This document shows positions 36,052-53,101 of a stretch of 53,486 nt of DNA, in pieces. How positions within the stretch are numbered: the stretch's first letter is position 1; every line of letters begins with the position of its first letter. The translations under genes and the position numbers were made by a program. Source of the stretch: Rhizobiaceae bacterium (lineage in GTDB: Bacteria; Pseudomonadota; Alphaproteobacteria; Rhizobiales; Rhizobiaceae); contig JAHBYU010000021.1 of assembly GCA_019635775.1 (NCBI GenBank), forward strand, positions 1 to 53,486, given 5' to 3'. The notes under the pieces were generated by a model. The model was not told the DNA's origin, ran no database searches, and worked only from the letters and a program-made list of their open reading frames with translations.

Positions 36052-37053
36052 TCAGGCGAAAGCCGGGATAACCTCTCTGCCGTAGCCTGCGATGATCTCT
36101 TCCTCCATGCCGCTGTCCAGGTAGACGTTGAACTGCGTCACGCCGGCGTCCTTCAGCTTGTGGATCTTGGCGACGTGTTCATCGGGCTCTCCGAGCACGC
36201 AGAAGTTCTCCACCACATCCGGCGTTATGAAGTCGAGGTAGGGATTGCTACTCTGTCCATGCTTTGAATAGTCGTAGCCACGGCGCTTCTCGATGTAGCT
36301 GGTCAGGCTCGCCGGCACGATGCTGGTGTCCTTGCCGTACTTCTCGACGATATCCGCGACATGGTTTCCGACCATGGCGGGGAACCATTTGGTCGCCTCG
36401 ATGGCCTTGTCCTTGGGGCCGAAATAGGCCGGTGCGCATGACATGGAGCGGAAGCCCGACATGTCGCGCCCCGCCGCCTTGCCGGCATCCAGGCACTGGT
36501 CGGTGAACCACTTGCAAAGTCCCGGCTCGGCGATCTGAAGCACCACACCGTCGGCATGCTCGCCAGCCGTCTTCAGCGCCAGCGGGCCGTAGGCCGCGAT
36601 CCAGGCCGGCATCTCGTGACCCACAGCCCATGGGAATTTCACTGGTTCCGGCGACTCGCCGTAGACGACCTCTTCGCCGCGCACCATCGCTTTCGATTTG
36701 TGGATGAACTCCGCAACACGCGCCAGCGTTGCCGGCTTGAAACCCATGACCCGGCGGGATGAATCGCCTCGCCCGACGCCGAGGTCGAAGCGTCCGCCGC
36801 TCTGCTTGGCGAGCGACCCGAAGATCGAGGCGGCAACCGACCAGTCGCGTACGTCCGGGTTGGTGACCAACGGTCCGAAGCGCATATCCTTGGTATGCTC
36901 CATGCACATGGCGATGGCCGCATAGCAATCGCGCCAGAGGATGTGCGAGTCGTAGAACCAGCAATAGGTGAAGCCGGCATATTCCGCTGCCCGCACGAGG
37001 TAGCGCGCGCGCTCGGGCTCTACGACGCCCTTGAAGGTAATTCCGAATTCCAT
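36052..37053 (-). CDS. LLM-class F420-dependent oxidoreductase
   Basis: The 333-aa luciferase-like TIM-barrel protein has the family's ITFKGVVEPERARYLVRAAEYAGFTYCWFYDSHI opening, FGPLVTNPDVRDWSVAASIF and FDLGVGRGDSSRRVMG. It is the last gene of the F420 operon, 36 bp after the FGD gene, with AAGGGGAGAC before ATG 37053. Relatives are annotated as F420-dependent reductases of unknown substrate (methylene-H4MPT-reductase-like). Its place in the F420 operon makes F420 the likely cofactor rather than FMN. The electron acceptor is unknown. Confidence 0.87.
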   Translation of the reverse strand: MEFGITFKGVVEPERARYLVRAAEYAGFTYCWFYDSHILWRDCYAAIAMCMEHTKDMRFGPLVTNPDVRDWSVAASIFGSLAKQSGGRFDLGVGRGDSSRRVMGFKPATLARVAEFIHKSKAMVRGEEVVYGESPEPVKFPWAVGHEMPAWIAAYGPLALKTAGEHADGVVLQIAEPGLCKWFTDQCLDAGKAAGRDMSGFRSMSCAPAYFGPKDKAIEATKWFPAMVGNHVADIVEKYGKDTSIVPASLTSYIEKRRGYDYSKHGQSSNPYLDFITPDVVENFCVLGEPDEHVAKIHKLKDAGVTQFNVYLDSGMEEEIIAGYGREVIPAFA

Positions 37054-37089
37054 GATCTGTCTCCCCTTATTGTCCTTGCTTGCCTGCCA

Positions 37090-38097
37090 TCAGCCGAATG
37101 CCTTGCGCAGACGCGGCAGTACCTGTTCCGAATAGAGTTTCAGGAAACGCTTCTGGTCGTGTCCCGGCGCGTGGAACACCAGATGATTGAAACCGAGCTC
37201 CACATAAGGCCTGATCTTCTCGACATGTTCGTCCGGGTCGGTCGATACGATCCATCGTTTCGCTGCGCGTTCTATTGGCAGCGCGTCGGCAAGCCTTTCC
37301 ATTTCCAGCGGGTCCTCGACCGACATCTTCTCCTCGGGCGAGAGCGACAGTGCCGCCCAGAAACGCGTGTCCTGCATGGCGCGATCGTGGTCGGTGTCGA
37401 ACGACACCTTCATCTCGATCATGCGGTCGATTGCGTCGGGCGCGCGGCCTGCCGTCTCCAGCCCGGCGGCGACATTGGGCAGCAGCGTTTCGCTGTAGAG
37501 TTCCGGTGCCTTGCCGCTGGTGCAGATGAAGCCGTCCGCCATTCGTCCTGCATATTTTGCGATCATCGGTCCCGCGCCGGCGACATAGATCAGCACCGGG
37601 TGCTCCGGCCTGTCGTAGATTGTCGCGTTCTCTGTCTGGTAGAACTGACCCTCGAAGCTGACGCGTTCCTCGGAGAGAAGCCTGCGCATCAGTTCCACGG
37701 ATTCGCGCAGGCGCGCGAACCGCTCCTTCAGTTCCGGCCAGACGACTTTTGTAGCGGGCACTTCGTTGAGCGACTCGCCCGTGCCGATGCCGAGGATGAG
37801 CCTGCCGGGAAAAAGCGAACCCAGCGTACCGAAGGACTGAGCCACGATTGACGGGTGATAGCGAAAGGTCGGGGTCAGAACGCTGGTCCCCATCATGATG
37901 CGCGATGTCTTCGCGCCGAGCGCGCCGAGCCAGGACATGGCGAACGGCGCATGGCCGCCCGTATGCCGCCACGGCTGGAAATGGTCGCTGATGAAGACGG
38001 AATCGAAGCCTGCCGCCTCTGCCGCCACGGAATTGTCGAGCAGTTCGGTCGGGCTGAACTGTTCGGCCGATGCCTTGTAGCCAAGCCTGAGTTCCAT
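37090..38097 (-). CDS. fgd: F420-dependent glucose-6-phosphate dehydrogenase (FGD type)
   Basis: The 335-aa protein matches mycobacterial FGD1 along its length from memory: [88 protein letters not shown] and [12 protein letters not shown]. Active-site residues known from FGD1 (His in SDHFQPW, Trp, Glu in GTGESLNE, Lys in SGK, Arg in KRWIV) are all kept. It oxidises glucose 6-phosphate and reduces F420 to F420H2. ATG 38097 has GGAGGAG eight bases upstream. It follows the CofC-CofE gene by 19 bp. FGD is best known from actinobacteria, so transfer is possible. Confidence 0.88.
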
Positions 38098-38116
38098 CAC
38101 GCCATCTCCTCCATCC

Positions 38117-39475
38117 TCACAGGAACAGCTCCTGATCAATCGGCCGCAAGACCTGCCCGGCGCTCGCCTGCCCGTCTTCTTCCCACGCTATCCCGCGCGC
38201 GATGACGGCCGGCAGGCCGGCATCCTTGCCCATCAACAGTCCGGCGGCGGCCGCGACCTCGTCGGCGAAGGCCGGCAGCGTCGCCTTCAGCCCGCGGCCA
38301 TAGGCGTCGGTGCGTGTCGTCCAGTCGATCAGCACCGGCACGCCGGCCACGCCGATCGCAATGTTGACAAGCCCGTTGCGCCAGGGTCGCCCGAATGTGT
38401 CGGAAACGATGACGCCGATCGGCTTGCCGTAGCGCTCCTCGAGACCTGAGCGGATCGTTCGCGCGCTGGCGTCGGGGTCTTCGGGCAAAAGCAGCAGCAT
38501 GCCATCTCGACCTTGTCCAAGGTTCGATTCGTCGATGCCCGCGTTGGCGCAGATCCAGCCATGCCGGTGTCGCGTGATGATGAGCCCGTCAGGCGGCTGC
38601 CTGCGCGCGCGGATGACGGCGCTCGATTCCCGCAGGATCGCCTCTACCTTGCGGGCGTCCTTGCCGATCTCGTCCGCCAGTCTGATCGCTTCGTCTGATG
38701 GCGTGAAGTCTGTTAGGGCTACTAGTCGTCCCTCGCTCTTGGAGACGATCTTCTGGGCGACGACCACGACATCGCCCGGCGCGAGCGTGAGCCCGGCCGC
38801 TTCTGCGGCTTCGGCGATCGCGGAAGCCAGGTCTTCGCCGTCCCCGATCTCGCCCATGCCGGGCACCGCGAGAAGCTGCAGGCCATCGATGGGCAGGCGG
38901 ATGGCTTCTCCGAGATCTGCTGGCCGGTCCACGTCGCGCGACAGGTGAGGAAGCAGAAGGCGTTCGACGCTCAGGCCTGCCCCGGCTGCGGCGGCCTCAT
39001 GCGTCTTTGCGGATTGTGGGCCGAAGCAGAAAGGGATCGCGTTCGGAGGCGAAACCAGAAGCGCATTGGTGCCGCCGTCATGCGACTGTGCGATGACGAC
39101 CGGCGCGCGCCAACCTGCCGCAAGCAGCGCGTTCCACTCGTCAACGTCCAGCGTCGGTATGTCGGCATGCAGAACCAGAAGAGCATCCGCTCCTGTTTCA
39201 ATTGCCCATGCTGCCGCCAGCCCGGCTGCCGCGTTGAGGTCGCCGCCGTCTGACTCCGCGATGACCGTGGCGCCCCGGGTTGCCGCGCGCTCCGCGATCA
39301 GGGGCGAGCGTGTCACGACGCCGACCGGCCCGTCATGTCGTGCGATCAGAAATGCAAGCGTGTTGTCAAAGAGCAGAAGTGCCAGGCTTTCGCGCGCATC
39401 GTTCGCCAGAGCGGGCTTGAGACGGGACTTCGCCTCGGCCGGATCCTTCATCATGATGGCAGCGGCGACTTTCAC
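38117..39475 (-). CDS. cofCE: CofC-CofE fusion: guanylyltransferase and F420 gamma-glutamyl ligase
   Basis: One 452-aa protein carries two F420 enzymes. Residues 1 to about 205 are CofC ([48 protein letters not shown]), which activates a phospho-acid (2-phospholactate, or 3-phosphoglycerate in some proteobacteria) with GTP. Residues from about 205 are CofE ([46 protein letters not shown]), which adds glutamates to F420-0. Start is GTG 39475, overlapping the cofD stop; a longer reading to 39787 only shadows cofD. There is no FMN-reductase domain like that of actinobacterial FbiB, which argues against the phosphoenolpyruvate/dehydro-F420 route. Confidence 0.92.
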
Positions 39476-40452
39476 CCCCTGCGACGCTCCCCGGCGATGG
39501 CAACTTTGCCGGCGAAGGCAAGCAACTCGCGCGCCAGCCGCTCTGCCCCTTCCGGTCCACCCATCAGTATCTCCGTGGCGGCGACGGCAAGCCCCGATGC
39601 CCGGAGCGCCTCGGCGTCCTCCACGTCGCCTGTATCCACGATGAAACCGTCGAGCAGGCCTGCGTAGCGGCCAGCGACTGCGCGTGTCGTCGCTTCGATG
39701 CCAAGATCCTGCATCAGCCGCGCCAGCGGTCCCTTGACCGCCTTGCCGCCGATCAGCGGCGAAACGCCGACACGTGGCGCGCGGCATTTCTCGATAGAGT
39801 CCCGCAGCCCGGGAATGGCAAGAATAGGCTCGATGGAGAGAAGCGGATTGCTCGGCGCGAACGCGATCAGGTCTGCTGAGGCGATCGCCGCCGAAGCAGA
39901 TACTGCGGGCTTTGCACTTTCAGCGCCCTCGTAGCGCAACTCCGACACCTTCGGGATGCATCTCCTTCCAACAAACCAGGGCTGAAAGTCCATCCAGCCT
40001 TCGTCCGTATTGAGTTTCGTGCGCACCCTTTCGTCCGTCGCTGGAACGATGTCTGCGCGAGCACCCCATTGCCTGGCGGCTTCCGCAACAATGGCAGACA
40101 GGCTTGCGCCCTCGGCGAGGCGCCAGCTTCGCCAGATGTGCAGTCCGAAATCGGCATCGCCGAGCTTCATCCAGACAGGCGCGCCAAGGTCGCGCAACAC
40201 GTCCAGCGCCTTGACCGTGTCGTAGGCAACGCCCCAGCCCTGGGAGCGGTCAATGCGGTCGGAAAGCGTGTAAAGCAGCGTGTCGACGTCCGGACATACC
40301 CGGAGCCCATAGAACTCCTCGTCGTCGCCGACATTGGCGATGACGGTGAGCGCACCGGCAGGCAGTGCGCGCGCAAGACCCTCCGCCATGCGAGCGCCGC
40401 CAACGCCACCTGCGAGAAGCACGACGTGCTGAAAGTCCCCGGTCATGCTCAT
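39472..40452 (-). CDS. cofD: 2-phospho-L-lactate (or 3-phosphoglycerate) transferase
   Basis: The 326-aa protein transfers the activated phospho-acid from the CofC product to FO, forming F420-0. Family motifs are LLAGGVGGARMAEGL, NVGDDEEFYGLRVCPDVDT and APSNPLLSIEPIL. ATG 40452 overlaps the cofH stop; Met3 (40446) is an alternative start. It is coupled to both neighbours by 4-bp overlaps. Confidence 0.95.
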   Translation of the reverse strand: MSMTGDFQHVVLLAGGVGGARMAEGLARALPAGALTVIANVGDDEEFYGLRVCPDVDTLLYTLSDRIDRSQGWGVAYDTVKALDVLRDLGAPVWMKLGDADFGLHIWRSWRLAEGASLSAIVAEAARQWGARADIVPATDERVRTKLNTDEGWMDFQPWFVGRRCIPKVSELRYEGAESAKPAVSASAAIASADLIAFAPSNPLLSIEPILAIPGLRDSIEKCRAPRVGVSPLIGGKAVKGPLARLMQDLGIEATTRAVAGRYAGLLDGFIVDTGDVEDAEALRASGLAVAATEILMGGPEGAERLARELLAFAGKVAIAGERRRG

Positions 40453-41720
40453 TCCGCCGCGACGGGGTGAGGTGCAGGCCGTTTGAGGAAAGCCAGCGGA
40501 TCGGCGCCCTGCTTGCGGCTCACCAAAGGCGCGATCTCGTCGGGATCGCTCTCGGAGTAGTCGGCCACCATGCCATAGAGGGTGTTGCGCTGTATTGGTA
40601 TGCGACCTGCAGAGCGGATGATGCGCACCATCTCGGCAGGCGTGATCTCCTGGCCGTGAGAGGAACCGGCAGCGCGGCTGATACTCTCGTTCATCAGCGT
40701 ACCGCCGAGATCGTTGACGCCGCAGTCGAGCATGAAGCGCGCCGCCTCCGGCCCGAGCTTCACCCAGGAAACCTGGATGTTGTCGATGAAGCCCGCCAGC
40801 ATGAGCCGTGCCACCGCATGCATGCGGATGTTTTCAGTTATCGTAGGACCGGGTCTGGCTTGGGGATGATCCCGGAAGAGCCGCGTCTGTTCGTGGACAA
40901 ATCCAAGGGGCACGAACTCCGTGAAGCCGCCGGTGTCGATCTGGATGGACCGTATCCGGTCGATGTGGGCTGCCCAGTGTGCTGGCCCGTCGATGTGCCC
41001 GTACATGATGGTCGCGGTCGTACGGATGCCGGCTTCATGCGCCGCGCGGATGATCCTTTCCCATTCGTCGGCCGAGAGCTTGTTGCGCGTAAGCTGCAAA
41101 CGGATTTCCGTATCGAGTATCTCCGCCGCCGTTCCAGGCATCGAACCCAGGCCAGCCGACTTCAACGCTGTGAGATAGTCTCGAAGCGGCTTTCGGCTTT
41201 TCTTCACCCCGTACCATATCTCGAACGGCGAGAAGGCATGCACATGCATCTGCGGCACGCGCGTCTTCACTGCGTCGAGAAGCCTGAAATAGTGGTCGCC
41301 GGGAATATCAGGATGTAGTCCGCCCTGTATGCAGACTTCAGTCCCGCCGCGCTGCCACGCTTCCTCCGCGCGGTTGGCGACCTCGTCAAGTGACAGCAGT
41401 TCTGCGCTCTTGGCCTCCTTGCGAACACCGAAATTGCAGAACTGGCATGCCATGTAGCAGACGTTGGTGAAATTGATGTTGCGCACCGTGACAAAGGTGA
41501 CGCGGTCGCCGATGCGTCGCCGCCTGATCTCGTCGGCTGTCGAAACCAGGGCATCGAGGTCCGTAGCCGACGCAGAAAACAGTATCTCCCCTTCCTGGCG
41601 CGATATCGTTCGTCCTTCGATTGCGCGGTCAAGAATGGCCCGGATGACCGGGCTGGCGCTGGCCAGTGCAGCCTCTACTGGCTTGCGATCGATTTGCACG
41701 GGGTTGGGGGTGTCGGGCAT
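40449..41720 (-). CDS. cofH: FO synthase subunit 2 (radical SAM)
   Basis: The 423-aa radical SAM enzyme has the cluster motif CYMACQFC and the family stretches TEVCIQGGLHPDIPG, HAFSPFEIWYG and CGVNDLGGTLMNESISRAAG. It couples tyrosine to the ribityl-pyrimidine. ATG 41720 lies 5 bp after the cofG stop, with no obvious ribosome site, so translation may depend on coupling. Confidence 0.95.
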   Translation of the reverse strand: MPDTPNPVQIDRKPVEAALASASPVIRAILDRAIEGRTISRQEGEILFSASATDLDALVSTADEIRRRRIGDRVTFVTVRNINFTNVCYMACQFCNFGVRKEAKSAELLSLDEVANRAEEAWQRGGTEVCIQGGLHPDIPGDHYFRLLDAVKTRVPQMHVHAFSPFEIWYGVKKSRKPLRDYLTALKSAGLGSMPGTAAEILDTEIRLQLTRNKLSADEWERIIRAAHEAGIRTTATIMYGHIDGPAHWAAHIDRIRSIQIDTGGFTEFVPLGFVHEQTRLFRDHPQARPGPTITENIRMHAVARLMLAGFIDNIQVSWVKLGPEAARFMLDCGVNDLGGTLMNESISRAAGSSHGQEITPAEMVRIIRSAGRIPIQRNTLYGMVADYSESDPDEIAPLVSRKQGADPLAFLKRPAPHPVAAE

Positions 41721-41725
41721 TGTAG

Positions 41726-42868
41726 TCAGGCCACGAATTGGTCGCGAGCGAGCCCGTCGGCACGCGCCATGTTGGCGAGCGTTGAATGAAGTGGCGCGGT
41801 CTCGATGCCGAGATAGGCCGGATAAACGGTCAGCCGTTCGACGAGCCTGTAGCCTCGCGCCTCGGTTCGTCTGGCAAGTTCGGCGATCGCAGGCCACGCT
41901 CGCTCGGGGTTGATGTGATCTGCCGTCAGTGGCGAGATTCCGCCCCAGTCATTGATGCCGCAGTCCAGATACGCCTCGAAATCCTCTTCCAGGTTCGGTG
42001 GTGCCTGCAAGCTTATCGAAGGATCGAGCACGAGCCTCGCCATGACCAGCGTGCGCAGCATCTCCTCGCGTGACGGCTCCATCCAATTGGCCATGGCGGT
42101 GCCAGGCTTGGCACGGAAATTCTGGACGATCACCTCCTGAACATGACCGTAGCGGCGACGCAGATCATTGATCGCGACGAGGCTGTCGACGCGCTCCTCC
42201 CACGTTTCGCCGATGCCGATGAGTATGCCGGTCGTGAAGGGGACACCAAGCCGCCCGGCCGCCTCGATGGTCCGCAGCCTGAGCAGCGGGGTCTTGTCCG
42301 GGCAGGCATGATGTGCCATGCCGGGTTTTCCAAGGCGTCGGCTCACATTCTCAAGCATCATGCCCATCGAGCCCGAGACTTCGCGCAAGCGCGCAATCTC
42401 GTCCTGGGTCAGCGTTCCGGCATTGACATGCGGCACCAGTTTCGTGTGCTCAAGGACCAGCCTGCACGCGTCGACGAGGTAGTCCACCGTGGACGCATGG
42501 CCGAGTCGCGCTAGCGCATTCCTCGCCTCCGCGTAGCGTCGTTCAGGCCGCTCGCCAAGCGAAAACAGCGCCTCCTTGCAGCCGAGCTGTTCCCCCTTCA
42601 TGGCCACGGCCAGCACCTCTTCCGGCGTCATGAAGTTCGCGCCCGGGTCGCCCGGGTGCTTGACGAAGGTGCAGTAGCCGCAGGTGTTGCGGCACATGGT
42701 GGTCAGTGGGATGAACACCTTGCGCGAGTAGCTGATCGTCTTTCCCCAATGACGGTCGCGGAGTTCCGACGCCCTTTTTGCAACCGGAGCGAACTCGGCA
42801 TCAGTCAGACCCACCAGAGCCTTGGCCTCGGAAGGCTCGGTTGCTTCCCAGATTTGCTCGACGGGCAT
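41726..42868 (-). CDS. cofG: FO synthase subunit 1 (radical SAM)
   Basis: The 380-aa radical SAM enzyme has CRNTCGYC and continues FVKHPGDPGANFMTPEEV, CKEALFSLGERPE and CGINDWGGISPLTADHINPE. With CofH it makes FO (7,8-didemethyl-8-hydroxy-5-deazariboflavin), the chromophore of F420 and of some photolyases. The two subunits are separate here, as in archaea and unlike the fused actinobacterial FbiC. First gene of the cof operon; it lies 203 bp downstream of the CFA-like gene on the same strand. Confidence 0.95.
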   Translation of the reverse strand: MPVEQIWEATEPSEAKALVGLTDAEFAPVAKRASELRDRHWGKTISYSRKVFIPLTTMCRNTCGYCTFVKHPGDPGANFMTPEEVLAVAMKGEQLGCKEALFSLGERPERRYAEARNALARLGHASTVDYLVDACRLVLEHTKLVPHVNAGTLTQDEIARLREVSGSMGMMLENVSRRLGKPGMAHHACPDKTPLLRLRTIEAAGRLGVPFTTGILIGIGETWEERVDSLVAINDLRRRYGHVQEVIVQNFRAKPGTAMANWMEPSREEMLRTLVMARLVLDPSISLQAPPNLEEDFEAYLDCGINDWGGISPLTADHINPERAWPAIAELARRTEARGYRLVERLTVYPAYLGIETAPLHSTLANMARADGLARDQFVA

Positions 42869-43071: not shown

Positions 43072-44301
43072 CTACCGGCTTGTCGGCCTCAGCTTGATCA
43101 TCACGACATCAGTCGCGTTGGCCCTGAATCCGGCCTCGCAATATGCAAGATAGTAGTCCCACATGCGGCGAAAGCGTTCGTCGAACCCGCGTTGCCTGAT
43201 CTCGGGCCACGCTTTCCGGAATCGGGTGCGCCACTCGGCCAACGTTCGCGCATAGCCGTTGCCGAACGATAACTCCGACACGATTTCAAGGCCTGCGGCC
43301 GCCGCCAACGTGTGCAGGTGTGTCTTCGTCGGTAGCATGCCGCCCGGGAAAATATAGCGCTGGATGAAGTCAGGCGACCGGCTATAGTTCTCGAAACGTG
43401 TTTCCGCGATGGTGATCACCTGAAGCACGGCTATGCCATGTTCCACGAGCCGCTGTTTGAGGACGTCGAAGTAGCGACGCCAGTAGGCTTCCCCGACGGC
43501 CTCAAACATCTCGATGGAGACGATCCGGTCGAACTGGCCACCCACGTCGCGATAGTCCTGCAGGCGTATTTCAGCCTCGTTGGCTTCGATTTCGGGACGC
43601 AGCCTGTCCAAGGCATATGCAAACTGCTCTTCAGAGAGCGTAACGCCGGTCACATGACAGTTCTTCGTCCGGACAAGGTCTTCGGCCACCGCTCCCCAGC
43701 CGCAGCCAATCTCGAGCACGCGCTCCCGGCCCTTGAGTTCAAGGAGCCCGGCCAGATGTCGGATCTTGTTCCGCTGCGCTTCTTCCAGAGTTTCGTCGCC
43801 GGTGAACATGGCCGCCGAATAGGTCATGCTGCTGTCGAGCCAAGGCTGGTAGAAGTCATTGCCCAGGTCGTAGTGTTCCGCGATATTGCGCTTGCTGCCG
43901 GATCTGGTGTTGCGGCGCATGCCGTGATGGACCCTGCCCGACAGGCGAGCAAGCCGTGAGAACCTGCGGAACGGCAGCCGCATCGTCTCGTTAAGCATCA
44001 CGAGTTCGAACAGGCGCAACAGGTCGGGCGTCGACCAGTCCCCGTCCAGGTAGGAAGCCGCGAAACCAACTTCGCCGCCAAGTACGAGCCGGACAAGCGC
44101 GCGCCATCGATGCACCGTGATCGAGACTTCCGGGCCGGGTGCCGTCCCGATACGCTCGATCCGGGCGCCGGTGGGCAGTTCGACGACCAGCCTGCCGGCT
44201 GCGATGTCGCGGATGAACTTCGAGACAAGCCTCGCTGCAAGGCTCGCGGATTCGTCGCGGTCGACGATGCCAGCTTCGTGGTTTGCCGATTCAATGGTCA
44301 T
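43072..44301 (-). CDS. ufaM: CFA-like SAM-dependent fatty-acyl methyltransferase (UfaM candidate)
   Basis: The 409-aa protein belongs to the cyclopropane-fatty-acid synthase family: SAM motif VLEIGCGWGAVAEDL, NIAEHYDLGNDFYQPWLDSSMTYS (in parts), IVSIEMFEAVGE, FIQRYIFPGGMLP. It is the third gene of an operon with a FAD-dependent oxidase and a DUF1365 protein, next to rpoE-chrR. In Rhodobacter sphaeroides the corresponding set makes furan fatty acids; UfaM methylates a vaccenoyl phospholipid chain without closing a cyclopropane ring. That function rather than true CFA synthase is inferred from context. ATG 44301 overlaps the DUF1365 stop. Confidence 0.85.
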   Translation of the reverse strand: MTIESANHEAGIVDRDESASLAARLVSKFIRDIAAGRLVVELPTGARIERIGTAPGPEVSITVHRWRALVRLVLGGEVGFAASYLDGDWSTPDLLRLFELVMLNETMRLPFRRFSRLARLSGRVHHGMRRNTRSGSKRNIAEHYDLGNDFYQPWLDSSMTYSAAMFTGDETLEEAQRNKIRHLAGLLELKGRERVLEIGCGWGAVAEDLVRTKNCHVTGVTLSEEQFAYALDRLRPEIEANEAEIRLQDYRDVGGQFDRIVSIEMFEAVGEAYWRRYFDVLKQRLVEHGIAVLQVITIAETRFENYSRSPDFIQRYIFPGGMLPTKTHLHTLAAAAGLEIVSELSFGNGYARTLAEWRTRFRKAWPEIRQRGFDERFRRMWDYYLAYCEAGFRANATDVVMIKLRPTSR

Positions 44302-45071
44302 GAGGATGCCCGAACGGGAGTTGTGGATTGCCGTGGCGGCGGCGGTTTGCGATGCACCCTGATGCCTTTCAGCCAAAGTCGTAACGCATGCCAGTGGATT
44401 GCAGCCGTCACCTTGAACGGCAGCAGGGGATAAAGCATCAACCCGCGCAGGAGATTTGTTGCGTTGAACGGTCTGGCCACGCCTGCCATCGAGGCGTGGA
44501 TCAGTGTGTCGGTTGCGTCGAAACCCCGAATGGCGATCAAGAATCGCTCACCGGGCACAAGCGTCCTGAATTCGTACCCCATGCCCATGCCCATGAAGGG
44601 AGAAACGTGGAAGCGCTTGTCGCACTGGTGAGAAGGTGTGGGCGTCACGCGGCTGGCGTCGAAGACATAGCTGTGCCGCTCGCCGAAGGTATTGTGTACC
44701 TCGTAGACTATGGCCGAAAGCCGCCCGTCCCTGAGATGGCAGAAATAGATGCTGATGGGGTTAAAGACGTAGCCCATCAGACGGGGCATGCAGATCAGGC
44801 GGATGGCGCCGCCGTCGAAGTCGATGCCATGCTCTGCAAGCGTATTTGCGATCTGACGTCGAAGAGTCAGTCCGCTGCCGTCACCATGGTCCTCGTTGTG
44901 AAAGCTGAGCACGTTGAACCGGTTATACGAAAAAAGGAAGCTTTTCCTTGCCAGTTCCGGCAGTTCGTCGAGGTCAAACAGAGCCCAGAACATTCGGTAG
45001 CGAAGCCGGTGCACGCGCGGACGGAGCCTGCGATGCATGACGTTGCCGAAATAGAGCTGCGAGCCGCTCAT
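44298..45071 (-). CDS. ufaO: DUF1365 protein (UfaO candidate)
   Basis: The 257-aa DUF1365 protein has the family's LYFGNVMHRRLRPRVHRLRY opening, FNPISIYFCH and HVSPFMGMGMGYEF. As I recall, the R. sphaeroides member of this locus, UfaO, is needed for inserting oxygen to form the furan ring on a methylated diene fatty acid. ATG 45071 and the stop overlap both neighbours by 4 bp, so all three genes are coupled. No signal peptide; it probably associates with the inner face of the membrane. Symbol is by synteny. Confidence 0.82.
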   Translation of the reverse strand: MSGSQLYFGNVMHRRLRPRVHRLRYRMFWALFDLDELPELARKSFLFSYNRFNVLSFHNEDHGDGSGLTLRRQIANTLAEHGIDFDGGAIRLICMPRLMGYVFNPISIYFCHLRDGRLSAIVYEVHNTFGERHSYVFDASRVTPTPSHQCDKRFHVSPFMGMGMGYEFRTLVPGERFLIAIRGFDATDTLIHASMAGVARPFNATNLLRGLMLYPLLPFKVTAAIHWHALRLWLKGIRVHRKPPPPRQSTTPVRASS

Positions 45072-46426
45072 GCGGCAACCTCCGACGGCGCCTGAGCGAC
45101 GGAAACTGGCCAGGATTTGGGCAGCGTAATCCGAGACGACTCGTCCGCAACCACCCAGGGGCGCTTGACGCCGCCAAGCGCCTCGGCCACGGCAAGGCCG
45201 GACTGCAGGCCGTCCTCGTGGAAACCTGCGCCGAAATGGGCACCGCAATACCAGGTGCCTTTCTGTCCCTGCAGCGTCCACAAGAGCTGCTGCGCCTCAA
45301 TGGCCGCGCGGTCGAATAGTGGATGGTGGTAGGTTTCGCGATGCAACACCAGGTCGTTGCGTATCGGCTTTTGCGGGTTCAGCGTCACCAGCATAGGCTG
45401 GCGCGTGTCGAGCCCTTGCAGGCGGTTCATCCAGTAGGTCACCCCGACTTCCTCCGCGCCCGGGCTGCCTTCCACGTGGTTCCAGCTCGACCATACGGAG
45501 CGGCGGCGCGGCATCGCGGTGATGTCGGTATGTAGCACAGCTTCGTTGCGGCTGTAGCGGAACGCACCAAGCAGTTCGCGTTCAATGGCGGACGGTTCGG
45601 CAAGCAGCCGGAGCGCCTGGTCGGCATGGGTGGCGATGACAACGTCATCAAAACGTTCTGTTCCGTGCTTTTGGTCATGCACTGCCACGCCGCCTACATG
45701 CCTTTCGATCGATCCGATGTCGGCTCCCAGGCAAATCCGCCCGTTGAAGTCTTCTGCCAGACGCCGCACGTAGGCGATGCTGCCGCCTTCGACGGTGCGC
45801 CACTGCGGACGCCCGCTGAGCAAGAGAAGGCCGTGGTTGTGGAAGAAGCGGATGAAGGCGCTGGCCGGATAGTCGAGGATTGCCGAACAGGGTGCCGACC
45901 AGATCGCGCCGGCCATGGGCAGCAGGTGGTCGTCACGGAACGCTGGGCCATAACGGTGCCTGTCTAGATAGTCGCCAAGCGTATGGGCTGGCGGCAGCGA
46001 AGCTAGATCGCCAGCTGCGGATTTATAGAAACGCACGAGATCGCGCAACATTGACCAAAAGCGCGGATTTGCGATGTTTCGTTTCTGCGCAAACAGGCCG
46101 GCGAGGCCGGCGCCGCAATACTCCAGCCGGCCCTCATCACGCGACACGGCAAAGGACATCTCCGATTTCCTGGTGCGTACGCCAAGATGATCGAACATCG
46201 CCGTCAGGTTGGGGTAGGTGGACTCGTTGTAGACGATAAATCCGGTGTCCACGGGCACTGGCGTGCCATCGGTTTCGACCTGAATAGTGTTCGAATGCCC
46301 ACCGAGCCTGTGATCGCGCTCATAGAGCACGACGTCTTGGCGCTTAGACAACAGCCAGGCCGCCGATAGCCCGGAGATACCCGCTCCCACCACCGCGATC
46401 CGTCTTCTTTTTTGCTGCAACTGCAT
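45068..46426 (-). CDS. ufaD: FAD-dependent amine-oxidase-like desaturase (UfaD candidate)
   Basis: The 452-aa flavoprotein has an N-terminal dinucleotide fold (RIAVVGAGISGLSAAWLL) and the conserved E(R)DHRLGGHSNT motif, VDTGFIVYNESTYPNL and MAGAIWSAP, typical of COG2907. The homologue beside rpoE in R. sphaeroides acts as a fatty-acyl desaturase (UfaD) in furan fatty acid synthesis, to my recollection. ATG 46426 is at the usual distance from the dinucleotide fold. First gene of the operon, read from an RpoE-type promoter at 46499-46471. Confidence 0.84.
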   Translation of the reverse strand: MQLQQKRRRIAVVGAGISGLSAAWLLSKRQDVVLYERDHRLGGHSNTIQVETDGTPVPVDTGFIVYNESTYPNLTAMFDHLGVRTRKSEMSFAVSRDEGRLEYCGAGLAGLFAQKRNIANPRFWSMLRDLVRFYKSAAGDLASLPPAHTLGDYLDRHRYGPAFRDDHLLPMAGAIWSAPCSAILDYPASAFIRFFHNHGLLLLSGRPQWRTVEGGSIAYVRRLAEDFNGRICLGADIGSIERHVGGVAVHDQKHGTERFDDVVIATHADQALRLLAEPSAIERELLGAFRYSRNEAVLHTDITAMPRRRSVWSSWNHVEGSPGAEEVGVTYWMNRLQGLDTRQPMLVTLNPQKPIRNDLVLHRETYHHPLFDRAAIEAQQLLWTLQGQKGTWYCGAHFGAGFHEDGLQSGLAVAEALGGVKRPWVVADESSRITLPKSWPVSVAQAPSEVAA

Positions 46427-46470
46427 TATTCGCCCCGGGCTGCTGCGTTGGGAACGCCACAATTTGCCTT

Positions 46471-46499
46471 GGTTACGGACGAAAAATGAAATCGGATCA
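46471..46499 (-). promoter_or_regulatory. RpoE-type promoter of the furan-lipid operon
   Basis: On the minus strand, TGATCC (46499-46494) is followed by exactly 18 bases and TAACC (46475-46471), 45 bp before the FAD oxidase ATG. The R. sphaeroides RpoE consensus is TGATCC with a TAA-type -10. Its -35 faces the sigma-factor promoter's -35 across 8 bp. Confidence 0.85.
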
Positions 46500-46507
46500 C
46501 GCAGGAA

Positions 46508-46536
46508 TGATCCAAACTGCACGCACCGTCGTAAAG
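46508..46536 (+). promoter_or_regulatory. RpoE-type promoter of rpoE-chrR
   Basis: TGATCC (46508-46513), 18 bases, then TAAAG (46532-46536), 80 bp before the sigma-factor ATG. Same architecture as the divergent promoter, implying autoregulation. Confidence 0.85.
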
Positions 46537-46616
46537 CTCTTTTGAAATCACTGGAAAGAGGCGTTGAAGTGTCTTTCTTGCCAGCCGGTGCTCGTTTGAA
46601 CGTATACTGCACAGCA

Positions 46617-47168
46617 ATGGTGGAATTCGATCCAGTCCGGCTGATCGCGCGCGTAGCGTCAAAACAGGACCGCGGGGCGTTCGCGGAGCTGTTCCAGCAC
46701 TATGCGCCGCGCGTAAAGGCAATGATGATGCGAAGGGGGGCAAGTTCCGATCGCGCCGAGGATCTGGCCCAGGAGACATTGTTGCGGCTTTGGCGAAAGG
46801 CGGGGCAATTCGATCCACGCCGTGCCAGCGCCTCAGCCTGGGTCTTTGCCATCGCGAGAAATGTCAGCGTCGACCTGGCAAGGCGCGACGGCCGTGCTGC
46901 GGCATGGCTTCTGGAACAGGACGTACCTGATGAAGAGGACCCCGATGAACCGGAGCAACACCTGATCGTGGCCGAACGGGAGGAGATCGTCCGATCGACG
47001 ATCGCGACGCTGCCCGACGATCAGCTACGTGTGATCCGGATGTCTTTCTTCGATGGTTTGGCACATGCGGAAATATCGGAAGTGCTGGGCATACCGCTAG
47101 GAACCGTGAAGTCACGGATCAGGCTTGCCCTGCAACGAATGCGAGACGGACTTGGTGACTTGAGATGA
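46617..47168 (+). CDS. rpoE: ECF sigma factor RpoE (ChrR-controlled)
   Basis: The 183-aa sigma factor has region 2 (LFQHYAPRVKAMMMRRG, EDLAQETLLRLWRKA, ASAWVFAIARN) and region 4 (LPDDQLRVIRMSFFDG, IPLGTVKSRIRLALQRMR). With the cotranscribed ChrR it matches the singlet-oxygen-response group. I chose ATG 46617 (MVEFDPVRLI); the longer reading begins before the promoter. It overlaps chrR by 4 bp. It should recognise the TGATCC-N18-TA elements found here. Confidence 0.92.
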   Translation: MVEFDPVRLIARVASKQDRGAFAELFQHYAPRVKAMMMRRGASSDRAEDLAQETLLRLWRKAGQFDPRRASASAWVFAIARNVSVDLARRDGRAAAWLLEQDVPDEEDPDEPEQHLIVAEREEIVRSTIATLPDDQLRVIRMSFFDGLAHAEISEVLGIPLGTVKSRIRLALQRMRDGLGDLR

Positions 47169-47788
47169 CCAACGCAATTACCCATCATCCCTCTGAAGAG
47201 ACACTTGCCGAATATGCGGCGGGCACGCTGGATGAGGCGCGCCGGCTGGTTGTCGCGATGCATGTTACGCGCTGTTCTGTTTGCGCAGACGAAGTCCGTC
47301 GCTGTGAAGCTGTCGGCGGCGTGTTTCTGGAGCGTGCACACTCTGTTGCTCTTCGCCCAGGCTCACTGGAAGCGGCCTTGCGGCGGATTGACGAGCGCGG
47401 GTCTTCAGAGAAAGACCTGCAGGCCAAGGACCCTTTGGCAGACTATGCGCTGGGTCCATGGCGCTGGGTCGGGCCAGGTGTTCGTCAGCGCTCGGTGTCC
47501 GTCCCCGAGGTGGACGGCATGAAGGTCTTTATGTTGCGGGCCGCGCCCGGAACCAGGCTGCCGCATCACAAGCACGTTGGTTACGAATGGACCTGTGTGC
47601 TTGAGGGTGCCTTCGAGCATGAGTTTGGGCGCTATGGCGCTGGTGATTTTGACGAGGCTGACGAGACGATGGAACACCGGCCGACCGTGTGCCAAGGTGA
47701 GCCATGCATATGTATCGTGGCACTGCAGGGCGGCATTGAGCTGCAAAGCAGGCTCGGTCGTTTCCTGCAGCCAATAATCCGGCTTTGA
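47165..47788 (+). CDS. chrR: ChrR-type zinc cupin anti-sigma factor
   Basis: The 207-aa protein has the N-terminal zinc-anti-sigma motif, His8, His33, Cys37 and Cys40 (AMHVTRCSVC), the same pattern as R. sphaeroides ChrR (H6, H31, C35, C38). The C-terminal cupin has LPHHKHVGYEWTCVLEG and a later His (EHRP), giving a second metal site. It sequesters RpoE until singlet oxygen triggers release or proteolysis. Translation is coupled to rpoE. Confidence 0.92.
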   Translation: MTNAITHHPSEETLAEYAAGTLDEARRLVVAMHVTRCSVCADEVRRCEAVGGVFLERAHSVALRPGSLEAALRRIDERGSSEKDLQAKDPLADYALGPWRWVGPGVRQRSVSVPEVDGMKVFMLRAAPGTRLPHHKHVGYEWTCVLEGAFEHEFGRYGAGDFDEADETMEHRPTVCQGEPCICIVALQGGIELQSRLGRFLQPIIRL

Positions 47789-47798
47789 CGAGCGGCAG

Positions 47799-48611
47799 GT
47801 GACGACCACCGCCTTCCTCACAACGGTTCTTTGCGTGGCAGTTGCGTTGGCAGTCGGAATGACGGTTGCGTGGCTTGCCTGGCGAAACACGCGCAATTCC
47901 GGCTGGGTCGACACGGTATGGACCTTCAGTGTCGGCCTGGTTGGCGTGGTGGCGGCAATCGTCCCCCCGACCGGCGATGCGGCACTTTTCGAGAGGCGTC
48001 TGATCGTCGCCTTGCTCGCCGGAGCCTGGGCGCTTCGGCTTGGAATGCACATCGCGCGCCGTACCCGCGGCATTACAGACGATCCCCGCTATGCAAGGCT
48101 GCTTGAGGGTTGGGGCGCTGATGCGTCGCGGCAAATGTTCTTACTCCTGCAGAAACAGGCGCTGGTCAGCATCCCGCTTGGGCTGGCCATGGTTCTCGCC
48201 GCGGCAAACCCCGATGCGCCGTTGCGCATGCAGGACTGGCTGGCGTTGATCGTGATGGCGACTGCGATTGTGGGCGAAGCGACGGCGGATCGCCAGCTAC
48301 GTCGCTTTGCTTCCGATCCGGGCAACGCCGGCAAGGTATGCGATGTCGGCCTATGGCGCTGGTCGCGCCATCCGAATTACTTCTTCGAATGGCTGGGATG
48401 GCTTGCCTATCCGCTTCTGGCGATCGGCATTTGGCCGTGGGGCTGGTTCGCCCTTCTCGCGCCTGTTTGTATGTATTGGCTTCTGGCCTACGTTTCGGGA
48501 ATTCCGCCCCTCGAACAGCATATGGTTGCCACGCGGGGTGACGCCTACCGTGCCTATCAGTCGCAGACCAGTGCGTTTTTTCCGCTACCGCCGAGACAGA
48601 AACAGGAATGA
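47799..48611 (+). CDS. DUF1295 membrane protein (5-alpha-reductase/ICMT-like)
   Basis: The 270-aa protein has about six to seven membrane helices and the family motif LWRWSRHPNYFFEWLGW. DUF1295 proteins resemble steroid 5-alpha-reductases and isoprenylcysteine methyltransferases; their substrates in bacteria are not established. GTG 47799 is 10 bp after the chrR stop. It is cotranscribed with rpoE-chrR and followed 4 bp later by a CFA-like gene, so a lipid substrate is likely. Confidence 0.85.
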   Translation: MTTTAFLTTVLCVAVALAVGMTVAWLAWRNTRNSGWVDTVWTFSVGLVGVVAAIVPPTGDAALFERRLIVALLAGAWALRLGMHIARRTRGITDDPRYARLLEGWGADASRQMFLLLQKQALVSIPLGLAMVLAAANPDAPLRMQDWLALIVMATAIVGEATADRQLRRFASDPGNAGKVCDVGLWRWSRHPNYFFEWLGWLAYPLLAIGIWPWGWFALLAPVCMYWLLAYVSGIPPLEQHMVATRGDAYRAYQSQTSAFFPLPPRQKQE

Positions 48612-48615
48612 TCGG

Positions 48616-49653
48616 ATGGGACTGATTGATAGCGCAGCACGCCTTGGTGAATCTTTGCCTTGGCCCGACCCTGTCCTGCGCGGTGCGATAGAGATTCTGG
48701 TGTCGCGAACTGATCGCCGGCTGGCAGCCTTGCCGTCAACCCAGACTTCACACTTCGCCCGAACGATGACCGATCTCCCGGTGGCCGTACACACTGCTGA
48801 TGCGAATGCTCAGCATTATGAGCTGCCGGAGCGCTTTTTCTCGCTGATCCTGGGGCCGCGGCGAAAGTATTCCTGCTGCCTCTTTGCGACAGCTGAAACC
48901 TCGCTGGCACAGGCCGAAGAGGATGCGCTCGCCGAAACCGCGAAACATGCCGATCTCCATGACGGCCAACGCATTCTCGAACTCGGCTGCGGCTGGGGCT
49001 CATTGTCATTGTGGATGGCCGAGCATTTCCGCGATGCCCGGATCACGGCATTGTCCAACTCACATTCCCAGCGTGCGTACATTATCGGCGAGGCAGCCAG
49101 GCGCGGACTTACCAATCTCACCGTCGTAACCGCTGACATGAACGACTTTTCGACTGATCAGGCCTTTGACCGTATCGTTTCGGTCGAAATGTTCGAGCAC
49201 ATGGCGAATTGGCGGGCCCTTCTGAGGCGTATGAGGAACTGGGTTGTTCCTGATGGTCGTGTCTTCATCCACGTTTTCAGTCACATAGTGTCGCCTTACC
49301 GCTTTGATCACGACAACCCGGCAGACTGGATCGCCAAGCACTTCTTCACCGGTGGTCTCATGCCGAGCCACGGCCTGATCCAGGAATTTCCTGAAAGCTT
49401 TACTGTCGAGCAGGATTGGCGCTGGAGCGGCGAACACTATCGACGCACTGCGGAAGCGTGGCTGGTCAACTACGACGCCAACGCCGACGAGATCGGCGCT
49501 ATCCTGGACGACGTCTATGGGAGGGATGCTGCGCTATGGCGCCGCCGTTGGCGTCTGTTCTTCCTGGCAACGTCGGGATTGTTTGGACATTCAGGCGGGA
49601 AGGTTTGGGGCATCAGCCACTATCGGCTTTCTCCGTCTTCGCGGTCGGACTGA
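48616..49653 (+). CDS. Second CFA-like SAM methyltransferase (possible FufM)
   Basis: The 345-aa protein has the SAM motif ILELGCGWGSLSLWM and IVSVEMFEHMANWR, with the family C-terminus FFTGGLMPSHGLI. It is shorter than the first CFA-like protein and lacks its long N-terminal domain. In Rhodopseudomonas palustris a SAM methylase, FufM, adds a second methyl to the furan ring; this gene is a positional candidate, unproven. ATG 48616 lies 4 bp after DUF1295, with AGGAATGATCGG upstream. Fourth gene of the rpoE operon. Confidence 0.83.
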   Translation: MGLIDSAARLGESLPWPDPVLRGAIEILVSRTDRRLAALPSTQTSHFARTMTDLPVAVHTADANAQHYELPERFFSLILGPRRKYSCCLFATAETSLAQAEEDALAETAKHADLHDGQRILELGCGWGSLSLWMAEHFRDARITALSNSHSQRAYIIGEAARRGLTNLTVVTADMNDFSTDQAFDRIVSVEMFEHMANWRALLRRMRNWVVPDGRVFIHVFSHIVSPYRFDHDNPADWIAKHFFTGGLMPSHGLIQEFPESFTVEQDWRWSGEHYRRTAEAWLVNYDANADEIGAILDDVYGRDAALWRRRWRLFFLATSGLFGHSGGKVWGISHYRLSPSSRSD

Positions 49654-49657
49654 TCTC

Positions 49658-50059
49658 TCAGCCCGCGAACCAACGTGCGGCATAGTAAGCCGCGGCCGAG
49701 GTCAATGCAGCAACGATCGTGCCGTATGCCAGATCGATGAGCGTGATCTGGAGGGTCCAGTTTCGCAGCGTCGCGTAGTTCGTCAGGTCGTACGTGGCGT
49801 AGGCAAGCAATCCGAACAGCGCCCCATAAGCCAACGCCGTGCCAACCGACCCGCTTCGCAATGCCGGCATGGCAGCGAATACAACCAGGCCGATTGGATA
49901 GAGGAAGTAGAAAACGAGCGCCGGGGCAAACCTCAAATTCTCTAGCAGGATGTCGCCAAGTACAGGCCTATAGAGCCTGCTCGCCATGGTCGTCAGCCAG
50001 ATGGCGTCGAGGATGCCGAAGACCAGCAGGGCGGCAAGATAGGAGACAATATATGTCAT
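49658..50059 (-). CDS. DUF2177 membrane protein
   Basis: The 133-aa protein has about four membrane helices and the conserved LVFGILDAIWL, VFYFLYPIGLVVFA and YATYDLTNYATL of DUF2177. ATG 50059 has AGGAAG ten bases upstream; the TTG three codons earlier is less likely. Its function is unknown. It is preceded by an RpoE-type promoter and convergent with the CFA-like gene (4-bp gap), so it belongs to the same stress regulon. Confidence 0.83.
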   Translation of the reverse strand: MTYIVSYLAALLVFGILDAIWLTTMASRLYRPVLGDILLENLRFAPALVFYFLYPIGLVVFAAMPALRSGSVGTALAYGALFGLLAYATYDLTNYATLRNWTLQITLIDLAYGTIVAALTSAAAYYAARWFAG

Positions 50060-50084
50060 TGGCGGCAACTTCCTCGTTTTTCTC

Positions 50085-50113
50085 CGTTACGCCCGAACAG
50101 ACCCATTGGATCA
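50085..50113 (-). promoter_or_regulatory. RpoE-type promoter upstream of the DUF2177 gene
   Basis: On the minus strand TGATCC (50113-50108), 18 bases and TAACG (50089-50085), 26 bp before the DUF2177 ATG. Identical spacing to the rpoE-locus promoters. Confidence 0.82.
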
Positions 50114-50210
50114 CGCGGCGTCCGGGACCGGAGCGGCTGCAAAGGGCGGGTCTTCCCGTAAACGAAGCGGCCGGTTCGTATCACATCCGTGATAGAGGCA
50201 GCTGCTCAGC

Positions 50211-50582
50211 TTATTCTGACGCAGTCCAAGATACGTTCCTGCAGACCAGCCCTCCGATGAAGCAGCCCCGTGTTGTCAAGCGTCCATTTCGCGCTGTGAC
50301 AACGACCGAATAGCTCAGCTTCCGCTTCGGGTCGTAGGCGGTGCCCGAATAGGAGGCTGGAGAGTCCGCCTTTAGCGACATTACAAGCCGATCGCCGACC
50401 TGTTCTCCCTTGCTGGTATCGCCGATCCACAAATTCGTCGCGCAGATTTTGGATCCGCATGGCGCTATGCGCACCACTGCATTGCCATCCCCGCGCGTCC
50501 ACTTTCCCTCGATAGGCATTTCGCCCGAAATGGCAGGAGCCGAAAATACTAATGAAACCGCGATTGCGAAAAACGAGCGCAT
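50211..50582 (-). CDS. DUF2147 secreted protein
   Basis: The 123-aa protein has a signal peptide (about residues 1-20) and the DUF2147 pattern IEGKWTRGDGNAVVRIAPCG...ICATNLWIG, with four cysteines. ATG 50582 has GGAGG seven bases upstream; GTG 50585 is one codon earlier. Its periplasmic role is unknown. An RpoE-type promoter lies directly upstream. Confidence 0.82.
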   Translation of the reverse strand: MRSFFAIAVSLVFSAPAISGEMPIEGKWTRGDGNAVVRIAPCGSKICATNLWIGDTSKGEQVGDRLVMSLKADSPASYSGTAYDPKRKLSYSVVVTARNGRLTTRGCFIGGLVCRNVSWTASE

Positions 50583-50601
50583 CACCGTACCTCCTGCGGC
50601 G

Positions 50602-50630
50602 AGATACGACCACGGTTCGATTCTGGATCA
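50602..50630 (-). promoter_or_regulatory. RpoE-type promoter upstream of the DUF2147 gene
   Basis: On the minus strand TGATCC (50630-50625), 18 bases and TATCT (50606-50602), 20 bp before the ATG. The -10 differs from the other three but keeps TA and the spacing. The -35 lies just inside the gap after the M42 peptidase gene. Confidence 0.72.
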
Positions 50631-51790: not shown

Positions 51791-52135
51791 TTCCTTCAAC
51801 CTCCGCTTCTATTGCCGTGTGCGCCGCCGGCTCCATCGGCCGGCTATCCAGTGGGCGCTGGAAGCCCACACACCAGCATCACAGATACCGCACAGCGTGC
51901 CATCGGAAATATTTAGGGTTCTAATGATTTGAAATCAAAAGAGTGCAACGAATCGACGATTTTCGACCGATGGAACCGAAGACGAAACGGCGACTGATAT
52001 GCGCAATTCCTGTGCTATCATGCCGATCACGCGTTTGAATTTTGCGGACGCAGAGGTAGGGTCATGGCGACACATTGTGCATGTTGACCAAAATTGAACG
52101 CTACGGACGACAACAGGCACTCCTTGGGAATCTCA
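51791..52135. other. 345-bp divergent intergenic region
   Basis: It separates the M42 peptidase from the FGE homologue. I see no gene. An odd palindrome, TGATTTGAAATCA (51925-51937), in an AT-rich stretch may be an operator, and the region probably contains both promoters, but no consensus I trust is present. Confidence 0.4.
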
Positions 52136-53101
52136 ATGAATCTGGCCTCGAGCACCAACGTCCCCGGCAAGGCGCCCCATGGGCGTGACATGGTCTGGAT
52201 TGCGGGCGGAAACTTCATGATGGGTTCGGACCATCACTATCCCGAGGAGGCTCCCGCGCACCCTGTATCCGTGGACGGTTTCTGGATCGATCGCTTCACC
52301 GTTTCGAATCGCGACTTCGACAGGTTCGTCAAGGAGACAGGATACGTCACCCTGGCCGAGCGGCCGGCAGACCCAGATAATTATCCAGGCGCGCAGCCGG
52401 GCATGCTCGTTCCTTCATCGACGGTGTTCCGCAAGCCCAAAGGTCCCGTCGACATGAACAACCACTACAATTGGTGGACCTATGTTCCAGGAGCCAACTG
52501 GCGTCACCCGCGCGGACCCGCCAGTTCCATCGCCAAGCTCGGCGACCATCCGGTGGTGCATGTCTCTCTACAGGACGTCGAAGCATATGCTCATTGGGCA
52601 GGGCTGGAAATTCCGACCGAAGCCGAGTGGGAATATGTCGGACGCGGAGGACTGGAGGGCGCCGAATTCGGATGGGGCGACGAGATGACACCGGGCGGTG
52701 TCCACATGGCCAACACATGGCAGGGCGATTTCCCCTGGCGCAATTCGATGGAGGACCGCTTCGAATACACCGCGCCGGTTGGTTCCTATCCACCAAACGG
52801 CTACGGCCTCTACGACATGATCGGCAACGTCTGGGAGTGGACAAGCGACTGGTATCAGGATCACGGCGCCATCGACAGCCCATGCTGCACCGTCGCCAAT
52901 CCCCGCGGCGGCCAACGGGACGGGAGCCGCGATCCTCGCGACCCGGCGGGCATTCCCCGCAAGGTGACCAAGGGTGGCTCGCATCTTTGCGCGCCGACCT
53001 ACTGTCGTCGCTATCGCCCCGCCGCCCGTATGGCGCAACCCGTGGACACCTCAACATCGCACTTGGGTTTTCGGCTCATTTTCCGCCCCAAAACACGATA
53101 G
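52136..53101 (+). CDS. Formylglycine-generating enzyme (FGE/sulfatase-modifying) homologue
   Basis: The 321-aa protein has the FGE fold: MVWIAGGNFMMGSD, DGFWIDRFTVSNRDFDRFVKETGY (in parts), PVVHVSLQDVEAYAHWAG, LPTEAEWEY-like IPTEAEWEY, GNVWEWTSDWY and GGSHLCAPTYCRRYRPAARM. Cys285 and Cys290 match the reactive Cys336/Cys341 pair of human FGE, so it could convert a sulfatase cysteine to formylglycine. ATG 52136 is preceded by TTGGGAAT; a TTG at 52094 is a weaker alternative. No sulfatase gene is in the window. Confidence 0.88.
   Translation: MNLASSTNVPGKAPHGRDMVWIAGGNFMMGSDHHYPEEAPAHPVSVDGFWIDRFTVSNRDFDRFVKETGYVTLAERPADPDNYPGAQPGMLVPSSTVFRKPKGPVDMNNHYNWWTYVPGANWRHPRGPASSIAKLGDHPVVHVSLQDVEAYAHWAGLEIPTEAEWEYVGRGGLEGAEFGWGDEMTPGGVHMANTWQGDFPWRNSMEDRFEYTAPVGSYPPNGYGLYDMIGNVWEWTSDWYQDHGAIDSPCCTVANPRGGQRDGSRDPRDPAGIPRKVTKGGSHLCAPTYCRRYRPAARMAQPVDTSTSHLGFRLIFRPKTR

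Follow-up and report, generated by a model that had tools for sequence, protein, structure and literature searches.

The stretch analysed here, 53,486 nucleotides of a contig from a Rhizobiaceae bacterium (JAHBYU010000021.1, positions 1 to 53,486, assembly GCA_019635775.1; hereafter, the window), carries at 43072–50582 a gene cluster that is likely to be a singlet-oxygen-responsive furan fatty acid locus, expected to yield dimethyl furan fatty acids. Judged by its sequence, its membership in a known kind of locus is well supported, a dimethyl branch is probable, and three companion genes (DUF1295, DUF2177 and DUF2147) are of interest. The direct evidence here consists of gene content, gene order, promoter matches, clade membership, active-site residues and co-occurrence, while we infer every enzymatic step from published homologues. 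Furan fatty acids have been described as little-understood antioxidants of microbes, plants and fish (PMC7380195).

All of the families named in a preliminary description of this DNA were found in their places, with Pfam matches far above chance; DUF2177 and DUF2147 genes, both on the minus strand, also lie within 43072–50582 and were absent from that description. The Pfam E-values below come from scans of the longest open reading frames (ORFs), and the predicted starts lie inside these longer ORFs.

43072–44301, minus strand: ufaM-like gene, S-adenosylmethionine (SAM) methyltransferase, 409 aa (CMAS 1.1e-81, longer ORF; UfaM clade)
44298–45071, minus strand: ufaO-like DUF1365 gene, oxygenase candidate, 257 aa (DUF1365 6.4e-82, longer ORF)
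45068–46426, minus strand: ufaD-like gene, flavin adenine dinucleotide (FAD) desaturase candidate, 452 aa (Amino_oxidase 1.7e-18, NAD_binding_8 4.8e-18, longer ORF)
46473–46499, minus strand: sigma-E-type promoter of ufaDOM, TGATCC-N16-CGTAA (published consensus match)
46508–46534, plus strand: sigma-E-type promoter of rpoE-chrR-DUF1295-MT2, TGATCC-N16-CGTAA (published consensus match)
46617–47168, plus strand: rpoE, extracytoplasmic function (ECF) sigma factor, 183 aa (Sigma70_r2 9.6e-19, r4_2 2.5e-14, longer ORF from 46464)
47165–47788, plus strand: chrR, zinc anti-sigma factor with a cupin domain (TIGR02451; ChrR cupin 3.3e-18)
47799–48611, plus strand: DUF1295, steroid-reductase-like membrane protein, 270 aa (DUF1295 7.7e-63)
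48616–49653, plus strand: MT2, second, FufM-like methyltransferase, 345 aa (CMAS 3.4e-41; coclaurine N-methyltransferase 1.9e-57)
49658–50068, minus strand: DUF2177, four-helix membrane protein (6.1e-42; four long helices in the model)
50087–50113, minus strand: sigma-E-type promoter of DUF2177, TGATCC-N16-CGTAA (published consensus match)
50211–50585, minus strand: DUF2147 protein with a signal-peptide-like start, judged by eye (1.1e-12)
50604–50630, minus strand: sigma-E-type promoter of DUF2147, TGATCC-N16-CGTAT (published consensus match)

On the minus strand, ufaD, ufaO and ufaM (likely starts at 46426, 45071 and 44301) are linked by ATGA overlaps. On the plus strand, rpoE (likely start at 46617) and chrR overlap by 4 bases, DUF1295 starts 10 nt past chrR, and MT2 (likely start at 48616) 4 nt past DUF1295. 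By family and order, homologues of the three furan-pathway proteins UfaM, UfaD and UfaO are present and adjacent as in R. palustris CGA009, where RPA2571-2570-2569 have the same three-gene order and are reported to be sufficient for monomethyl furan acid formation in R. sphaeroides (PMC7380195). R. palustris also has a distant second methylase, fufM (RPA0924), that makes the dimethyl acid (PMC7380195). By locus number fufM is far from ufaDOM, whereas MT2 of the present locus shares an operon with rpoE, chrR and DUF1295. The neighbour of fufM, RPA0923, for which deletions are listed (PMC7380195), may be a DUF1295 gene. The R. sphaeroides sigma-E/ChrR regulon (RSP1091-1087, RSP2144) resembles the locus in its sigma, anti-sigma, promoter, ufaD and ufaO elements but differs in that ufaM (RSP2144) is reported to be unlinked, outside the ufaD-ufaO operon (PMC7380195). 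Here ufaO is followed by ufaM rather than by relatives of RSP1089-1087; relatives of RSP1087-1089 were not searched for elsewhere in the genome.

The preliminary description stands in part. Sequence supports its furan fatty acid locus under sigma-E/ChrR control, its second methyltransferase as a FufM equivalent, and its placing of DUF1295 in a membrane superfamily of reductases and methyltransferases, where the protein is closer to the reductases. It had taken the gene order from R. sphaeroides, whereas the real match is R. palustris. Its view of the host as a heterotroph is supported too: the genome (99.92% complete) gave no match to the reaction-centre family PF00124, and the bacterium seems to live without photosynthesis. 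Two genomes classed in the same family are a Mesorhizobium MAG and Rhizobium skierniewicense, which places the host with them. The idea that a furan pathway is unusual in a heterotroph is not supported. Halomonas has the three ufa genes in a row (PMC12089945), and we found a ufaD-like gene (cut-off, E<=1e-60) in 117 of 240 sampled alphaproteobacterial genomes. The pathway has already been described in R. sphaeroides, R. palustris and Halomonas. The core of this locus is ordinary, and its companions are the interesting part.

The UfaM-like protein was compared with E. coli Cfa, in which we take C139, E239, H240, H266 and Y317 to be functional residues, with C139, H240 and H266 presumably holding the bicarbonate base. 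Of the residues expected in a cyclopropane fatty acid (CFA) synthase, the window's protein retains only E239 and Y317, the others being replaced (C139 by A, H240 by A and H266 by Q). The same is true of UfaM proteins from ufa loci generally (55 of 55, after removal of three of the 58 matches as cut or short): E239 and Y317 are kept, A occupies position 240 and Q position 266, and position 139 is S (45) or A (10). Three further UfaM proteins, encoded away from ufaD (genomes G043, G118 and G194), all share this signature. The G194 gene adjoins a DNA photolyase gene, and RSP2144 of R. sphaeroides is reported to adjoin phrB (RSP2143). These separate genes came from a set of 11 loci, from which L175, L181, L184 and L185 were left out; L178 is identical with the L149 UfaM gene and was counted once. 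Read on their own, L181 and L185 keep C, E, H, H and Y at the five positions. The genome to which the window belongs also encodes three CFA paralogues, 35–36% identical to the UfaM-like protein, and these retain C139, H240 and H266. For R. palustris, identities to UfaM of 26% (FufM) and 38% (a CFA-type protein) have been reported (PMC7380195). In a tree of 150 methyltransferase sequences, from which two wrongly extracted CFA homologues (L017, L019) had been removed, the UfaM clade was monophyletic (55/55, support 0.987). Given this clade and the residue signature, it is very unlikely that the UfaM-like protein is a cyclopropane synthase of the ordinary sort. The published product carries a methyl branch and a shifted double bond, which loss of the ring-closing residues would fit; the protein probably acts on vaccenoyl chains.

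Control of the locus by a sigma-E/ChrR (ECF11) pair is indicated by a zinc motif (H-x3-C-x2-C) in the N-terminal part of ChrR, its cupin domain, the sigma gene directly upstream, and a TGATCC-N16-CGTA promoter. ChrR scores 182 bits against the TIGR02451 subfamily, passing the cut-off of 124.5, and falls below that of the narrower equivalog NF051881 (212.9 bits versus 300). One reported RpoE promoter of R. sphaeroides is TGATCC-N15-GCGTA (PMC5036791), and the P. syringae consensus is TGATCC-N16-CGTA (PMC5507510). With one mismatch or fewer allowed, TGATCC-N16-CGTAA occurs 68 times in the 4.95-Mb genome, compared to 13 times for the reversed control. Four of these sites are exact: three precede ufaD, rpoE and DUF2177, and the fourth precedes a fasciclin-domain gene. 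When the 68 sites are screened for exact TGATCC-N16-CGTA, eight remain, four of them within 4.2 kb at the locus; the fourth locus promoter lies 22 bases ahead of the DUF2147 ATG. The other four include the fasciclin gene site, one at a Ferric_reduct gene and one inside a mannitol dehydrogenase-like gene.

We then compared promoters across three locus sets: the window and seven relatives; 80 named MT2 loci, which are the best among the matches listed with the MT2 profile and hence describe close MT2 relatives rather than all genomes; and 20 ufaD loci hand-picked as roughly every sixth entry among the 117 ufaD-positive genomes. Presence counts refer to the fetched stretch of each locus. The motif TGATC-N17-CGTA was found within 250 bases before rpoE in 5/5, 32/46 and 12/12 cases for the three sets, before ufaD in 3/5, 24/62 and 7/20, before DUF2177 in 4/6, 11/58 and 1/1, and before DUF2147 in 2/4 and 3/20. 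It preceded none of the 81 ufaO or 57 ufaM genes in the three sets, and the reversed motif preceded no gene in them. Across related loci, then, the motif sits ahead of operon heads.

Two of the promoter sites elsewhere deserve mention. In locus L161 (1501-2452), a TGATCC-N16-CGTA site lies 71 bases upstream of a Ferric_reduct-family gene, which presumably resembles MsrQ/YedZ. The fasciclin-gene site (G000:C2:96279-96305; L051, L028) is the sole exact TGATCC-N16-CGTAA outside the locus, and the SAK1 list of Chlamydomonas also holds a fasciclin-like gene (PMC4067076).

Among solved structures, MT2 best matches coclaurine N-methyltransferase (1.9e-57) and pavine N-methyltransferase; CFA synthase comes well behind (3.8e-25). 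In the tree, 89 of 89 MT2 proteins fall in one clade (support 0.667); they are 25–30% identical to the UfaM-like protein, and the window's own pair 28%. All 89 retain E239, H240, H266 and Y317, yet they are nearer to the non-CFA family. The same alignment shows F in 89/89 where E. coli Cfa has I268, and Cys at position 140 in 77/89. Arabidopsis LIME1 is, we assume, a member of the coclaurine N-methyltransferase group. Because MT2 is nearer to these enzymes than to CFA synthases, and FufM has its plant relative LIME1 among them, MT2 is probably a FufM-type, dimethyl-furan enzyme. FufM is reported to be 38% identical to LIME1/AtFUFM1 (PMC10940516), and tables of the Chlamydomonas study label Cre09.g398700 both CFA2 and CPLD27 'coclaurine N-methyltransferase' (PMC4067076). 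When FufM alone was added to R. sphaeroides, the dimethyl acid was formed (PMC7380195).

The distribution of MT2 is that of a restricted subset, as for FufM: 8 of the 240 genomes have it, compared to 117 with ufaD, and seven of the eight hold ufaD, the exception being G065 (86% complete) at the cut-off used. Two of the named MT2 loci (L068, L078) are from the same genomes as G011 and G020 of this survey. Within the 80 best MT2 loci, which include none from R. palustris, we found DUF1295 in 66, ufaD in 63, ufaO in 62, DUF2177 in 59, an rpoE-like gene in 47, ufaM in 39, a chrR-like gene in 37 and DUF2147 in 20. Loci of close MT2 relatives therefore commonly have this arrangement, which recurs in many Alphaproteobacteria and is not peculiar to this genome. 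The 20 ufaD loci gave another picture: ufaO adjoins ufaD in all 20, and ufaM (16), chrR (14) and rpoE (12) are frequent, while DUF1295, MT2 and DUF2177 occur in one locus, all three together. None of the four ufaD-sample genomes without ufaM in the stretch (G043, G118, G194, G242) is one of those with MT2.

The companion genes appear to belong to the same biology. DUF1295 directly adjoins MT2 on the same strand in all 66 of the best MT2 loci that have it, three Bradyrhizobium loci (L069, L114, L127) included; the other 14 lack it in the fetched stretch. Close DUF1295 relatives (E<=1e-50) occur in 6 of the 240 genomes, all six with MT2 (P = 1e-10; P values for co-occurrence are uncorrected for kinship). 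At two loci (L102:5807-5889 and L129:4585-4682) the motif precedes DUF1295-MT2 with no rpoE nearby, and at L129 also, divergently, ufaD, as if the DUF1295-MT2 module owned its sigma-E promoter. DUF2177 is present in 23 of the 240 genomes, 22 of them with ufaD (P = 6e-7), and in G044 and G180 it adjoins ufaD with MT2 absent. A fold search with DUF2177 gave no match better than E=1.9, and its profile no match at E<=1 among PDB sequences. In our best explanation, DUF1295, DUF2177 and DUF2147 belong to the same sigma-E regulon. Our literature searches, which covered open-licence PubMed Central papers, returned no title tying DUF1295 or DUF2177 to furan lipids.

Outside support comes from Chlamydomonas, where CFA1, CFA2, DUF1365, DUF1295 and DUF2177 genes are listed as induced by singlet oxygen in a SAK1-dependent manner (PMC4067076, Table 5). 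The algal genes are dispersed and under SAK1, rather than clustered under a sigma factor, and the word furan is absent from the main text of that paper. This response with the same families is the strongest outside support for the companions sharing this biology. Stenotrophomonas maltophilia smlt2375-2367 is likewise a divergent sigma-E/ChrR-controlled cluster, beside rpoE-chrR-chrA, with an FAD oxidoreductase and two CFA-type genes, but it comprises nine genes, including a desaturase and a lipocalin, and is linked to superoxide rather than singlet oxygen tolerance (PMC11832516).

By homology, the locus probably works as follows. ChrR would keep the sigma factor inactive until lost upon exposure to singlet oxygen or organic peroxides, as established in R. 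sphaeroides, and the released sigma factor would read the four promoters in the locus. UfaM would methylate the cis-vaccenoyl chains of phospholipids but form no cyclopropane ring, UfaD would convert the product to a conjugated methyl-diene, UfaO would close the furan ring using O2, and MT2 would add the second methyl. Singlet oxygen would be scavenged by the furan lipids, which may also influence ChrR turnover through feedback. Roles for the three companions are guesses; for DUF1295, the most likely is an NAD(P)H-dependent reductase acting on a product of the dimethyl branch. It could instead methylate the lipid once more, as a membrane methyltransferase of the ICMT/PEMT kind, but we consider this rather unlikely. 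On trapping singlet oxygen, a furan opens to an ene-dione, and a 1,4-dione can lose water to give a furan. It is conceivable, if improbable, that DUF1295 regenerates the scavenger by reducing the enone double bond of the ene-dione, in the manner of a steroid 5-alpha-reductase, so that the 1,4-dione returns to the furan. That would make the dimethyl furan an antioxidant that the membrane can recharge, and DUF2177 would contribute to the same cycle in bacteria and algae; the link of DUF1295 to FufM would follow from its acting on the dimethyl product.

Several observations weigh against this explanation. The MT2 clade has a support of just 0.667, and among solved structures MT2 lies closest to alkaloid N-methyltransferases. 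In the 240-genome survey MT2 and ufaD go together weakly (7/8 versus 110/232, P = 0.028), and 17 of the 80 best MT2 loci have no ufaD in the fetched stretch. Eight more genomes lack MT2 but carry a more distant DUF1295 (E 1e-50 to 1e-30). The motif is absent before 38 of the 62 ufaD genes in the best MT2 loci, so this form is not universal. Orthology with the enzymes tested in R. sphaeroides and R. palustris rests on order, families and reported identities. In S. maltophilia, rpoE-chrR and the lipid cluster had no effect on singlet oxygen tolerance (PMC11832516). Finally, E. coli carrying Halomonas ufaM made cyclic fatty acids besides the methyl-branched intermediate (PMC12089945), although E. 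coli has its own cfa.

Part of this evidence would be explained if the pathway ended at the monomethyl furan and MT2 methylated another substrate, for instance a small amine or the amine of a lipid head group, given that its nearest solved structures are N-methyltransferases and its co-occurrence with ufaD is weak. However, FufM itself shares this kinship with plant LIME1, ufaD is near MT2 in 63 of the 80 loci, and MT2 shares the sigma-E operon here; we regard a different substrate as unlikely. Both methyltransferases match the CMAS family, as would two cyclopropane synthases making cyclopropane lipids under stress. But C139, H240 and H266 are missing from the UfaM-like protein and its whole clade, MT2 is far from CFA synthases by structural relatives and in the tree, and the genome has three other CFA genes with intact sites. 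Active-site residues and tree led us to reject this explanation, which appears highly improbable.

Directly downstream of ufaM (36052-42868) lie coenzyme F420 genes, among them CofH, a CofC-CofE fusion and two luciferase-like monooxygenases, along with a radical SAM gene that, by position, we take to be CofG-like. As a part of the system they were rejected: the other 107 loci compared, many of them short, gave no match (E<=1e-30). A gene of the formylglycine-generating-enzyme type (FGE-sulfatase) lies near the window end (52094-53101).

Two points extend beyond this genome. A240 and Q266 (E. coli Cfa numbering) split all UfaM-type proteins from all cyclopropane synthases readable here, a division that family names blur. 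And the locus points to two membrane families, DUF1295 and DUF2177, that travel with the furan pathway and have relatives induced by singlet oxygen in an alga, making their function directly testable.

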